Of a stretch of 64,000 nt of DNA, positions 5,356-63,672 are shown piece by piece; position 1 is the first letter of the stretch, and each line of letters begins with the position of its first letter. A program made the translations under genes and the position numbers. The notes beneath the pieces are model-generated. The model did no database searches. It saw nothing but the letters and a program-made list of their open reading frames with translations, and had not been told where the DNA came from. Source of the stretch: an uncultured Bacteroidia bacterium (GTDB taxonomy: Bacteria; Bacteroidota; Bacteroidia; Bacteroidales; UBA932); contig CACZCQ010000010.1 of the NCBI GenBank assembly GCA_902779765.1, forward strand, positions 62,001-126,000, written 5' to 3'.

Positions 5356-6747
5356 CTAGAATTCGATTTCAAGGTTCTCTATCTCGGTGGCCACCTGCTT
5401 GAGGAAGCGGGTCGCCTCACCGCCGTCCAGGGCCCTGTGGTCGTATGTCAACGAGAGGCCGAGATAGGGGACGAACTCATATTCACCGCCTCCGAGAGCC
5501 TTGGGACGGGGCACGATCGTGCCAACGCCGAGGATTCCGCTCTGGGGCAGGTTGATGACAGGAGTGAACCATTCGACTCCGAAACCACCCAGGTTGGACA
5601 CCGTGAAAGACGCTGCTTCCGAGGACAGGAGGTCAGGATTGATGCTGCCCTTGCGGCAGTCATCGGCCACCTGCTTGAGAGCCTTGCTGAGGGCTATTAT
5701 GTCCAGTTCCTCGGCATGCTTGATGCACGGGACCATAAGGCCGCGCTCGGTATCGACAGCACAGCCGAGATTGACTGTCTTGAAAATGCGCATCGCATCG
5801 CCGAGACAGTGTGAATTGACCTTCGGGAATTTATGCAGGGCCTTGATCACGGCGAAGCAGACGAAATCGTTGATCGTCACGTTCGCATCGATCCGGCCTT
5901 CCTCCAGGGCTTTCTTCGCCTTTTTGCGGAGAGCCTGGACCTTCCTGGCATCGGCGCCGAGCATATGGGTGAGCTGGGCTGAGTTCTGGAGGGAGTTGTA
6001 CATGCTCTTTGCAATGAGCTTGCGCATGTTGGACATCTTCTCGACAGTGAACTCCGTCCCTTCACCGGGTATCTCGGAATGTGAAGGCTCCCAGGTCTTG
6101 AGGTCTCCGCCCTTGACCATGCCTCCCAGACCTGAACCTGATGCAGGGGCCTGAAGGTTCCCTTCCTTCATCATCGCCTTTGCAAGGCCGGTACGGGGCG
6201 TCAGGGCGGCAGCCAGTACATCCCTTTCAATGACACGGCCGCCAGGGCCGGATCCGGCTATATGCGTTGCATCGACCCCCTTCTCAGCTGCAAGTCTCCG
6301 GGCACGGGGAGAAACTGCGGAGGAACAGGCCGGGGAGACCATACCCCCTGAAACCGTCTCGCTCCGCTCGACCCCACCGCTCGCTTCGCTGCGCTCCGCT
6401 CCGGTCCCCCCTCTTAACGTGCCGAGGGTGGCAGTGGTTTCCGAGGGTATGGTCTCCCCGGCTGCACTGCCGCTGTCACCTGAAGGGGCGAACTCCTCGA
6501 AGGACTCGCCGGGCTCGCCGATGACCATCACGTTGGTCAGGCACGGAATCTCATCATTATCGTTGAAGAAACACGCCAGGACAGTACCTTCGAATTTTGA
6601 TTCCTCTTCGAACGAAGCCTTGTCAGTTTCATAGCTGAAAAGGATGTCTCCGACGGCAACCTTGTCTCCGACTTTCTTTTTGAATTCTGTTACGATGCAA
6701 CTTTCGACTGATTGCCCCTGTTTGGGCATTATAACTGCTTGTGCCAT
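5356..6747 (-). CDS. 2-oxoacid dehydrogenase E2 (dihydrolipoamide acyltransferase)
   Basis: This is the core acyltransferase of the complex and the first gene of the operon. It has one N-terminal lipoyl domain with the lipoylated Lys43 in ETDKASF, then a linker, then an E3/E1-binding domain starting near residue 145 (SPRARRLAAEKGVD, SGPGGRV). The C-terminal catalytic domain ends with the YDHRALDGG motif (His and Asp of the active site). The linker at residues 96-140 is made almost entirely by an inserted repeat (6329-6462) and contains GTGAERSEASGG. This segment is not part of the family fold, yet it keeps the frame. A divergent promoter lies upstream, facing the transketolase genes. Confidence 0.93.
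   Translation of the reverse strand: MAQAVIMPKQGQSVESCIVTEFKKKVGDKVAVGDILFSYETDKASFEEESKFEGTVLACFFNDNDEIPCLTNVMVIGEPGESFEEFAPSGDSGSAAGETIPSETTATLGTLRGGTGAERSEASGGVERSETVSGGMVSPACSSAVSPRARRLAAEKGVDATHIAGSGPGGRVIERDVLAAALTPRTGLAKAMMKEGNLQAPASGSGLGGMVKGGDLKTWEPSHSEIPGEGTEFTVEKMSNMRKLIAKSMYNSLQNSAQLTHMLGADARKVQALRKKAKKALEEGRIDANVTINDFVCFAVIKALHKFPKVNSHCLGDAMRIFKTVNLGCAVDTERGLMVPCIKHAEELDIIALSKALKQVADDCRKGSINPDLLSSEAASFTVSNLGGFGVEWFTPVINLPQSGILGVGTIVPRPKALGGGEYEFVPYLGLSLTYDHRALDGGEATRFLKQVATEIENLEIEF
6329..6462. repeat. Dispersed in-frame element, copy 1, in the E2 linker
   Basis: Inverted arms at 6329-6355 and 6436-6462 match at 24 of 27 positions; the outer 18 are perfect (gccggggagaccataccc). 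They flank an 80-base core (6356-6435). The core is shared with copy 2 at 63370-63446: about 69 of 77 aligned bases are identical, with one 3-base indel. The arms are not shared with copy 2. The E2 gene, on the minus strand, reads the core as GTGAERSEASGG and similar residues without a stop. Confidence 0.85.
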
Positions 6748-61128: not shown

Positions 61129-63672
61129 ATGAAGAAACTCGACAGATTCATATTGACTTCGTTCGTAGGACCATTCGTACTGATCCTGCTTGTCGTGATC
61201 TTCATCCTCGTGATGCAGACCCTCTGGGTCTATATCGACGAGCTGGTCGGCAAGGGACTGGACTTCCGGATCATCGCCGAGTTCCTGTTCTGGGGAAGCT
61301 GCATGGTGCTGCCGCTTGCATTACCCCTGGCCACCCTGCTGGCATCCATGATGACCATCGGAAGCATGGGAGAGAACAACGAGCTGATTGCACTGAAGGC
61401 TGCCGGAGTATCGGTATTCCGGGTGATGGCTCCGGTCATGATAGCATCCCTGATCATTTCCGTCGGAACATATTTCGTCATCAACAAACTCGTTCCCGTT
61501 GCATACAACGAGATGTTCACCCTGAGGGATGACATCAAGAATACCAAGAACGAGATCAAGATTCCCGACGGGGTCTTCTATGACGGAGTGGACGGGTATG
61601 TGCTCAGGGTGGAATCCACCTCTCCCGAAGGCATGATGAACGGAGTCATGCTCTATGACCATCACGGAAATGGCAATACCAGGCTCACCCTCGCCGATTC
61701 CGCACAGATAAAGATGTCCAAGGACAAGTCGTACCTGACCATCCATATGTACCAGGGCACCAATTACCAGGAGACCAACAAGATGGCTTACAGGGATACT
61801 TCCCTGCAACTGCAGAAGATCGACTTCTCCAGGCAGGAGATGGTGGTCGCCCTCGAGAATTATGCCTTCCAGAAATCCGACAGCGTGAGGTTCGGAGACC
61901 AGGCCAAGACAATGCCACTGAGGAAACTGCGTGAAGTCAAGGACACCCTGAGGGCAGAAAGGGACAGCACCAAGTCGTCACAGCTGATGTCCACTGCAGC
62001 TTCCTACCTGTTCTCGCTCAACAAGCAGCTGGATACGATTCCCTCCGGGATCTACAGTAATTTCGAGGACCCTGACTTCCTGAATTTCGCCGACGAGAGT
62101 GCCACCGCTTCCGCGATGTCCAGGGCTGCAACGGTCGCCGCACAGATGCAGTCCAATCTCCAGACATATGAATTCGGGGCATTCGATTATACCGTAAGGC
62201 TCCGATGGACCATGGTCGAGTTCCTGAGACGGTATTCCCAGGCGCTCGCCTGTTTCATAATGTTCTTCATCGGTGCGCCGCTGGGAGCCCTCATCCGCAA
62301 AGGCGGGCTGGGTGTTTCAGCCATCGTGGCCATCCTGTTCTTCGTCCTGTACTGGATCGTCGACATAACCTCCGTCAAACTCTCGAGGGATGGCAGCGTA
62401 AGCCCCTGGGTCGGAGCCTTCGCTTCAGCCGCCGTGATGCTGGTGATCGGCGTCTACCTGACATTCAGGGCCATACACGACACCGACCTGTCCAATACTG
62501 ATTCCGTCAAGAATCAATGGAAGAAACTCAAGAGCAAGGTCATCGGGTTCTTCCGCAAGACGAGGATTGTGTTCATGGGTACTCCCGAATTTGCGGTTGC
62601 CTCACTCAAGGCCCTGCTCGACAACAACTACAATGTCGTAGGTGTCGTGACAGTTGCAGACAAACCAAGCGGACGCGGTCAGAAAGTCAACGAAAGCGCA
62701 GTCAAGCAGTTCGCTGCCGAGCGCGGCATCCCTGTCCTGCAGCCGGTCAAGCTCAAGGATCCCGTATTCCTTGAACAACTCGCCGCCTTGAAGGCCGACC
62801 TGTTCGTGGTGGTAGCGTTCAGGATGCTGCCTGAAGATGTATGGATGATGCCCAAGCTGGGTACATTCAACCTCCACGCCGCCCTTCTGCCGCAATATCG
62901 CGGTGCGGCCCCTATCAACTGGGCGGTGATAAACGGTGAGACGAGGACGGGAGCGACGACCTTCATGATCGACAAGAATATCGATACCGGAGGAATAATC
63001 CTGCGCCAGGACATCAACATATCCGAGACTGACACCGCCGGCGATGTCCATGACAAACTCATGGAAATCGGAGCCGAAATGGTGGTACAAACCACTCAGG
63101 GTCTTATCGAGAGAACGGTGGAGACCAGGATCCAGAGGAGTTTCATCCAAGGTTCCGAGGTCCTCAAGCCGGCTCCCAAGCTGACCAGGGAACTCTGCCA
63201 TATCGACTGGAACGATAACACCGTCCAGGTCTATAACCTTATCCGGGGTCTGAGTCCCTACCCTGCCGCCTTCACCGAACTGGTCAAGGAAGGCTCATCC
63301 CCTCTCCAGCTCAAGGTCTACTCCGCCGAGAAGGTTGATCCTCGGTTCGAAGGGAACGGCAGTTCGGACGCCTCGCTCCGCTCGGCCCCACCGCTCGCTT
63401 CACTTCGTTCCGCTCCGGTTCCCCCTCTAGTGCCGAGGGTGGCATTGTCCTCACCTGCCGTTCCCTCCGAACCTGGAAGAATCATCTCCGACGGGAAGAC
63501 GTATCTGTGGATAACGACTGCGGACGGAGCCATTTCACTTAAGGAGGTACAGCTTGCCGGCAAGAAGCGGATGGGCATCGAAGCATTCCTCCTCGGCTTC
63601 CGCGACCCTGAATCATACTCCACAACGACCGGCACCTCCAAGGCCGAGATAGCCAAGACCAGACAGGCGTGA
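61129..63672 (+). CDS. Fusion of an LptF/LptG-family permease with methionyl-tRNA formyltransferase
   Basis: One uninterrupted frame of 847 residues encodes two unrelated proteins. Residues 1 to about 475 are a YjgP/YjgQ (LptF/G) permease: three N-terminal helices, a periplasmic beta-jellyroll part and three C-terminal helices (about 370-450). From residue about 479 (RIVFMGTPEFAV) it is Fmt, which formylates initiator Met-tRNA. The Fmt catalytic triad is present (Asn581, His583 in FNLHAALLPQYRGAAP; Asp619 in IDTGG). The C-terminal domain is complete but carries a 44-residue insert (739-782) made by the repeat at 63344-63473. There is no stop between the parts; internal GTG 62569 or ATG 62575 could start a free Fmt. 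The C-terminus of LptF/G faces the cytoplasm, so the fusion is topologically possible. Confidence 0.85.
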   Translation: MKKLDRFILTSFVGPFVLILLVVIFILVMQTLWVYIDELVGKGLDFRIIAEFLFWGSCMVLPLALPLATLLASMMTIGSMGENNELIALKAAGVSVFRVMAPVMIASLIISVGTYFVINKLVPVAYNEMFTLRDDIKNTKNEIKIPDGVFYDGVDGYVLRVESTSPEGMMNGVMLYDHHGNGNTRLTLADSAQIKMSKDKSYLTIHMYQGTNYQETNKMAYRDTSLQLQKIDFSRQEMVVALENYAFQKSDSVRFGDQAKTMPLRKLREVKDTLRAERDSTKSSQLMSTAASYLFSLNKQLDTIPSGIYSNFEDPDFLNFADESATASAMSRAATVAAQMQSNLQTYEFGAFDYTVRLRWTMVEFLRRYSQALACFIMFFIGAPLGALIRKGGLGVSAIVAILFFVLYWIVDITSVKLSRDGSVSPWVGAFASAAVMLVIGVYLTFRAIHDTDLSNTDSVKNQWKKLKSKVIGFFRKTRIVFMGTPEFAVASLKALLDNNYNVVGVVTVADKPSGRGQKVNESAVKQFAAERGIPVLQPVKLKDPVFLEQLAALKADLFVVVAFRMLPEDVWMMPKLGTFNLHAALLPQYRGAAPINWAVINGETRTGATTFMIDKNIDTGGIILRQDINISETDTAGDVHDKLMEIGAEMVVQTTQGLIERTVETRIQRSFIQGSEVLKPAPKLTRELCHIDWNDNTVQVYNLIRGLSPYPAAFTELVKEGSSPLQLKVYSAEKVDPRFEGNGSSDASLRSAPPLASLRSAPVPPLVPRVALSSPAVPSEPGRIISDGKTYLWITTADGAISLKEVQLAGKKRMGIEAFLLGFRDPESYSTTTGTSKAEIAKTRQA
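63344..63473. repeat. Dispersed in-frame element, copy 2, in the fmt part
   Basis: Inverted arms at 63344-63362 (ggttcgaagggaacggcag) and 63455-63473 match at 18 of 19 positions; a further ggac/gtcc pair lies just inside, with a one-base bulge. They flank a 77-base core (63370-63446) shared with copy 1. The host gene is on the plus strand, so it reads the core antisense to copy 1, as LRSAPPLASLRSAPVPP, again without a stop. Confidence 0.85.

Follow-up and report, generated by a model that had tools for sequence, protein, structure and literature searches.

A dispersed hairpin repeat with locus-specific arms lies in-frame, in both senses, within housekeeping genes of Bacteroidales

How does one DNA segment come to lie in-frame inside two housekeeping genes that read it from opposite strands? 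The question is raised by a 64-kb stretch (‘the window’: positions 62001–126000 of contig C10 in genome G000, an assembly of 2.48 Mb in 31 contigs; G and L numbers denote genomes and loci throughout), in which a sequence-only reading had picked out matching cores in the genes for a 2-oxoacid dehydrogenase E2 component and for Fmt, differing by one 3-base indel and sharing one chromosomal orientation. All of this was recovered: a search of the window's own genome with the 76-nt E2 core aligned the fmt core at 88% identity over 76 nt with a 3-nt gap (E = 2.4e-21), and both cores have the same orientation on the plus strand, the E2 gene being on the minus strand and fmt on the plus strand. The inserted peptides read ...ATLGTLRGGTGAERSEASGGVERSETV... 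in E2 and ...ASLRSAPPLASLRSAPVPPLVPRVALS... in Fmt. With their paired arms the whole elements exceed the cores, extending over about 6329–6463 and 63344–63474. In the list below and hereafter, a copy is in orientation A if its host gene is read along the strand with TGCCACCCTCGGCA, and in orientation B if it is read along the opposite strand.

5356–6747, minus strand: E2 host gene, 2-oxoacid dehydrogenase E2 component (domain match)
6329–6463, minus strand: element copy in E2 with both arms; here the minus strand, the sense of E2, is the A-sense one
6358–6433, minus strand: conserved 76-nt core of the E2 copy, used as search query
6330–6346, plus strand: left outer arm of the E2 copy, forming 17 bp with 6445–6461 (sequence and pairing statistics over copies)
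6445–6461, plus strand: right outer arm of the E2 copy, pairing with 6330–6346 (sequence and pairing statistics)
6350–6355, plus strand: inner arm stem of the E2 copy, pairing with 6436–6441 (from sequence)
6420–6433, minus strand: hairpin TGCC[ACCCTC]GGCA of the E2 copy (structure statistics)
6424–6428 and 6409–6413, complements of both: pseudoknot of the E2 copy, loop CCCTC with GAGGG (structure statistics)
6356–6372, minus strand: terminal hairpin GTC-GA-GC-GNA-GC-GA-GAC of the E2 copy (structure statistics, copy pattern count)
63344–63474, plus strand: element copy in fmt with both arms, read by Fmt in the B sense
63372–63444, plus strand: fmt core, shorter by 3 nt (core search)
62563–63669, plus strand: Fmt part of the host ORF 61129–63672 (ORF and domain match)

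Distribution of the repeat

Both insertion sites had been proposed to be tolerant ones. By domain search, the E2 insert falls in an interdomain linker, between the lipoyl match (residues 6–68) and the E3-binding match (residues 146–179), and the Fmt insert falls within the Formyl_trans_C match, a position that suggests tolerance there. The host ORF of the fmt copy, 61129–63672, joins the C-terminal part of an LptF/LptG permease to Fmt, with a stop-free junction, in 847 codons.

The segment had also been called dispersed, and 18 matches to the 76-nt core at E < 1e-8 are present in the window's genome, where a covariance model gave 19 matches at E ≤ 0.01, 18 of them at E < 1e-9. Twelve of the 18 copies lie in-frame within recognisable genes (ORFs with Pfam or NCBIfam matches), encoding E2, QueH, IspE, KsgA, a SpoU-type RNA methylase, ArgD, Fmt, an RsmF-like methylase, an aldehyde dehydrogenase (ALDH), PurD, GH92 and GH3; the other six (L002, L006, L009, L010, L014 and L016) are intergenic. 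Residence in both reading senses, another expectation of the sequence-only reading, holds among the genic copies, ten of which are in orientation A and two, those in Fmt and ALDH, in orientation B. The segment is neither limited to two copies nor an ancestral part of E2 and Fmt in all relatives, the possibilities that had been raised against its mobility: orthologues without it are many, including 15 of 35 E2 sequences and 26 of the 30 best Fmt proteins (the Fmt search gave matches in 57/61 genomes, from which the 30 best loci, including the window's own, were aligned).

Carriers detected by the covariance model number at least 78 of 121 genomes in the genus, at least 4 of 247 in the order and at least 1 of 247 in the phylum, own genome included in each case; these are lower bounds, obtained from sampled genomes under strict filters and with a ceiling on the number of candidates scored. 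The genomes besides the window's are species representatives, one per species, and nearly all or all of them MAGs. There were 746 matches in the genus, with 1 to 33 per carrier genome. In GTDB terms the genus probably corresponds to Cryptobacteroides, judging from the labels of the E2 relatives (‘Bacteroidales bacterium’ from ruminant MAGs, and ‘Candidatus Cryptobacteroides aphodequi’). Outside it, one genome of another family in the order has three copies sharing conserved arms (L320–L322). Inside the genus, genome G347 has recently amplified copies within larger repeat units, beside a sister repeat, GCC[ACCCCC]GGCTAGGGGG, of the same pseudoknot plan. Larger mosaic units with the element occur at L303–L311, L314 and L315 (G347 and G358), several of them also with this sister repeat. 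Phages and plasmids gave no matches by distant blastn, and viral contigs none for one exact pattern. Among known Rfam RNA families, none matched the 10 loci searched above its gathering threshold: the one match reached 21.1 bits, against 45 required (E = 0.23).

Our preferred reading, to which we give a probability of about 0.68, is of a non-autonomous, mobile family of ~135-bp hairpins, inverted or exchanged in place, in effect a portable in-frame inverton, and working much as Rickettsia palindromic elements (RPEs) do, a precedent that had been invoked from the first and that is apt in this sense of likeness in working. The same figure covers, jointly, the statements that the family is common in one genus of rumen Bacteroidales and patchy beyond, and that partial copies in relatives are deletion scars (see below).

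Arms, core structure and reading frames

Beyond what the sequence-only reading had described, the repeat proves to be a hairpin whose complementary arms are particular to each locus: the full element, of ~135 bp, comprises a structured core closed by ~30-bp arms that pair within each copy. In 85 copies (drawn from 160 BLAST matches, which gave 103 unique full-length copies, by removal of those with similar flanks), pairing between arms of the same copy was 0.84–0.93 at 10–30 nt from the core, compared with 0.54–0.58 for swapped arms, falling at 30–35 nt to 0.56 (own) and 0.49 (swapped); at 12–28 nt, own pairing exceeded the swapped 95th percentile in 83/85 copies. Position-wise arm identity between loci was just 0.34–0.41 at 5–30 nt. 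A recent subfamily, nine copies chosen by their common left inner arm, showed between-locus agreement of 0.82–1.0 (left) and 0.69–0.86 (right) over the inner 20 nt, and of 0.42 over the next 8 nt, where swapped pairing was 0.46 and own pairing 0.86 (position means for the 8 copies scorable there). Because these outer 8 nt differ between loci but pair within a copy, the outermost arm is site-private yet self-complementary.

Complementarity of this kind might instead arise after insertion, through template switching that perfects a palindrome, and this account may well apply, at a little under even odds. Compensatory differences between relatives at one site, such as those between the E2 arms of the window and L078, are what it would produce; among 15 E2 sequences own arms paired at 0.84, and with the arm of another species at 0.59, which fits it also. 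However, complementarity ends rather abruptly, ~8 bp past the common inner arm in the 8 recent copies and near 30 nt in the 85, which fits a defined event better than later perfecting.

The core structure, derived from 42 sequences, consists of a pseudoknotted hairpin, a variable hairpin and a terminal hairpin, with 82% of cells paired compared with 34–52% in slid versions. In the helix between the loop and its downstream partner (the pseudoknot) 97.6% of cells were paired, with U-A changed to G-C in 3/42 sequences, including SpoU-gene copies, and the covariation score was 0.130 against 0.076 for shuffled alignments, 0.130 being reached in 0/500 shuffles. Three points are contrary: the number of pair types was not above that of shuffles (468/500 as high), the covariation score was still 0.092 after a slide of +1, and only a minority of sequences formed the first hairpin's three outer pairs. 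The terminal hairpin had the GNA-loop form (GCGNAGC, N being any base) in 75/103 copies, the variable pair among these being T-A in 30 and C-G in 45. As d(GCGNAGC) is an unusually stable DNA mini-hairpin, and the A-sense strand folds better than its complement (mean −80 vs −73 kcal/mol with RNA parameters, 95 copies), these features suggest that recognition is of the A-sense strand.

Long ORFs contained 90 of the 110 copies with 400-nt context, and a single frame was used by 52/53 A-oriented and 31/37 B-oriented gene copies, as counted from longest-ORF calls in G+C-rich DNA over copies that are not independent. The opposite-sense frame, unused by the gene, was open in 82/90 gene copies, with stops in 5/53 A and 3/37 B; the same two frames had stops in 7 and 6 of 20 intergenic copies. 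Unused-frame stops were thus fewer in gene copies (8/90) than in intergenic ones (13/40; Fisher p = 0.0015, the copies again not being independent).

A pseudoknot and a long stem, set in conserved genes, might recall an intron-like or bypass element that is removed from the mRNA or skipped by the ribosome, the peptide never being made. We regard this as very improbable, since a given orientation is almost always read in the same frame, which is stop-free in gene copies (partly by construction, spanning ORFs defining the gene-copy class), and since partial copies are in-frame too.

Orientation at shared gene sites

Opposite senses are not merely a matter of which host gene is chosen; they occur also at one gene site across species, a finding that lay outside the sequence-only reading. 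For E2, loci L078–L116 were taken from a set of 45, leaving out distant proteins (L117–L122), loci without a usable ORF (L104, L106 and L108) and truncated ones (L109 and L110). The linker held the element or a derivative in 20/35 sequences: nine A, six B, four A with another middle part, and one remnant. Seventeen of these filled sequences formed one group in the E2 tree (support 85/64), the other three lying in two further places. Five states required 13 changes on the tree, 6 of them between A-type and B. Absence of the insert was clustered (3 changes vs 11.5 for shuffled labels), and A (8 vs 8.1), B (6 vs 5.7) and A with another middle part (4 vs 3.9) were no more clustered than shuffled labels; strongly supported sister pairs with different states were L079/L115, L084/L112 and L087/L089. 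Flipping improved the match between the 26-nt arms of opposite-orientation E2 neighbours in 5/5 comparisons (0.79, 0.85, 0.77, 0.71 and 0.58 flipped; 0.61, 0.68, 0.62, 0.56 and 0.50 unflipped). Opposite-orientation sister alleles differed in the middle hairpin too. The E2 linkers of L082, L087, L091 and L092 are chimeric, an unrelated segment (SSQAGISRPAGAGLR...) replacing the left part of the element, with the right end retained.

At fmt, orientation was B in the window, L124 and L258, and A in L125, L126 and L245, the arms of L126 and L258 matching at 0.75 flipped and 0.51 unflipped. Corresponding values were 0.96 vs 0.71 for TrmO (L275/L266) and 0.88 vs 0.73 for IspE (L204/L208). Non-orthologous copies gave a background of 0.51 in the element sense vs 0.40 in the opposite sense (144 pairs), and because of this element-sense background a clear flip signal is limited to E2, fmt, TrmO (L266/L275) and IspE (L204 or L207 vs L208); the RsmF-like and other IspE pairs were, after flipping, at or below background. 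Both orientations at one site were found further in the genes for KsgA, QueH, the RsmF-like methylase, GH3, ALDH, the SpoU-type methylase and IspH, and these differences may have their source in independent insertion.

An ordinary REP- or RPE-type repeat, inserted at random, tolerated in loops and then diverged, would yield both orientations at one site by independent insertion into permissive loops, with no inversion. Intragenic REPs and RPEs are known; the loops of KsgA and IspE host other repeat families, which makes them hot spots; the KsgA, GH3 and IspH arms all come from one recent subfamily; and the opposite-orientation arms in the RsmF-like gene are unrelated (0.38–0.40 flipped). As a general explanation it is nevertheless rather unlikely, given that the 17 filled E2 species in one group have arms that match after flipping, and given the flipped match of the two fmt copies.

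A real, if lesser, possibility is that old alleles of both orientations have been shuffled between species by homologous recombination, inversion being rare. Same-orientation E2 alleles were alike across species, with 0.96 identity between the A arms of L081 and L112, although L084, the sister of L112, is B, and 0.94 between the B arms of L084 and L086; by eye, the L112 linker begins like that of L084 and from the arm onward resembles that of L081. Allelic exchange may therefore be a part cause of orientation switching, and real inversions perhaps few. Yet shuffling still requires at least one inversion at such a site, and does not by itself account for both frames staying open in gene copies. 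At E2 and fmt a segment between inverted repeats is found in both orientations between species. Intragenic invertons, or gene-altering inversions, coding segments that are flanked by inverted repeats and found either way round, are reported to have been described by Chanin et al. in 2024 and Milman et al. in 2023; the present element differs in being a dispersed repeat that carries inverted repeats of its own as well as two open frames, and the comparison here is between species.

Partial sites, candidate movers and neighbouring repeats

Unfilled relatives were compared at the IspE, KsgA, SpoU-type, ArgD, PurD, TrmO, IspH, GlpC-like, MATE-like, ALDH and MiaA genes; several that are near filled ones resemble deletion remnants, and the clean empties are too diverged to show whether one arm is duplicated target. 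KsgA has no insert in G085, the nearest genome by E2. Partial forms in IspE comprised a 6-bp mini-palindrome (G085), one arm (G096) and the core end with one arm (G093), and TrmO L273 has a bare palindrome explained by deletion between two CTGCCAG repeats; further partial remnants were found in GlpC-like L282, MATE-like L285 and L286, and IspH L279. The frame was kept by partial copies in all five genes, and sequence comparison suggests that they are in-frame deletion scars. Across the many species of this one genus a given site may be filled, empty, partial or flipped, which allows direct comparison of insertion, inversion and loss.

The single IspE arm of G096 sits at the very position that arm-core-arm' takes up in the otherwise similar G095 (L187 and L206), which is consistent with an inverted target duplication. 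This arm could be a pre-insertion site instead of a loss product, and deletion between short CCCC repeats would account for it equally. A duplication of this kind might arise if the hairpin were joined at one target end and its free 3' end extended, ~8 bp of target thereby being copied to the other arm. A bolder version, which we think improbable on balance, is a portable intragenic inverton that would copy ~8 bp of target inverted on insertion, so build its own repeats, and then be flipped in place to give two alternative peptides.

On the preferred reading, of a mobile hairpin inverted or exchanged in place, the element would spread as a single-stranded (or RNA) hairpin recognised via its core. 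Insertions that break genes would be lost, the survivors being those in-frame in tolerant loops, where the arms could allow inversion in place, or exchange with other alleles, by recombination or template switching. Each flip would swap one peptide for another and leave the gene intact, because both sense frames are open; inversion, if active, would make the element a mobile source of intragenic variation in housekeeping enzymes. Annotators should note that peptides such as ATLGTLRGGTGAERSEASGG or SLRSAPPLASQSEAPVPPLNVPRVAV derive from the repeat when they occur in unrelated proteins.

One candidate mover is a RAYT-type HUH transposase. Y1-type transposase matches were found in 89/121 genus genomes (both transposase and element in 68, element only in 10, Y1 only in 21, neither in 22), a co-occurrence for which descent is a confounder; 10/78 carriers had no Y1 match, one of them with 18 copies of the element. 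The window's genome has four Y1/RAYT-like genes (L227–L230), one of them ~0.9 kb from the KsgA copy; the core flanks none of the four, and three have other palindromes alongside. RAYT was set aside as the established mover on these grounds, the Y1-like genes sitting beside other palindromes and the co-occurrence being confounded by descent. The gene at L228 is bracketed by its own palindromes, e.g. CCATGTGGT...ACCACATGG. An autonomous parent of the element was not found among Y1 transposases.

Coding genes have been recognised as hosts of selfish palindromes since Rickettsia, and to our knowledge their movement and in-frame residence are still open questions. RPEs are described in PMC10969869 as ~150-bp palindromic repeats of several families, many in-frame in unrelated genes. 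The present element is likewise an in-frame palindromic repeat in unrelated genes (12/18 copies in the window's genome), but, compared by description only, it differs in its locus-specific arms, pseudoknot core and site-wise orientation differences, and belongs to a different phylum. REPs are short hairpin repeats sometimes within genes (PMC3733652). The element resembles the REP/REPIN-RAYT systems (GTAG- or CGTC-tagged) in being a short hairpin repeat in a genus with RAYT-like genes, and differs from them in that its outer ends vary per locus in the genus, leaving no common terminal tag, and in that its core adjoins no RAYT-like gene in the window's genome. Like a MITE it is non-autonomous and dispersed with inverted ends, but in the genus these ends are not conserved between copies. 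The element is not assigned to the RPE, REP or inverton class, and no description of the family was found among the matches listed from open-licence full text on palindromic elements, in-frame insertion, Cryptobacteroides repeats, RPEs, small dispersed repeats, pseudoknotted palindromes, RAYT/Bacteroidales and intragenic invertons (further compared: PMC2884548, PMC3116915 and PMC11892184).

Other in-frame repeats occur in some of the genes that host the element. In KsgA of the window's genome (L005, 1124–2248), two copies of a second repeat (STPLHPQGGLRGVPLRH) precede the element; G089 KsgA (L211) has one copy, and several relatives differ in what fills the site. A third repeat, with a peptide like RxHxRFAAAEYGLS, occurs in the RsmF-like gene and in relatives' KsgA (L012, L210 and L214). 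A further type, giving VILSEAK, CHPERGEGS or DRSFADAQDD peptides, lies in the same loops at L192, L204, L207 and L216, and its L192 copy contains GA-GCGAAGC-GA, as in the element's hairpins.
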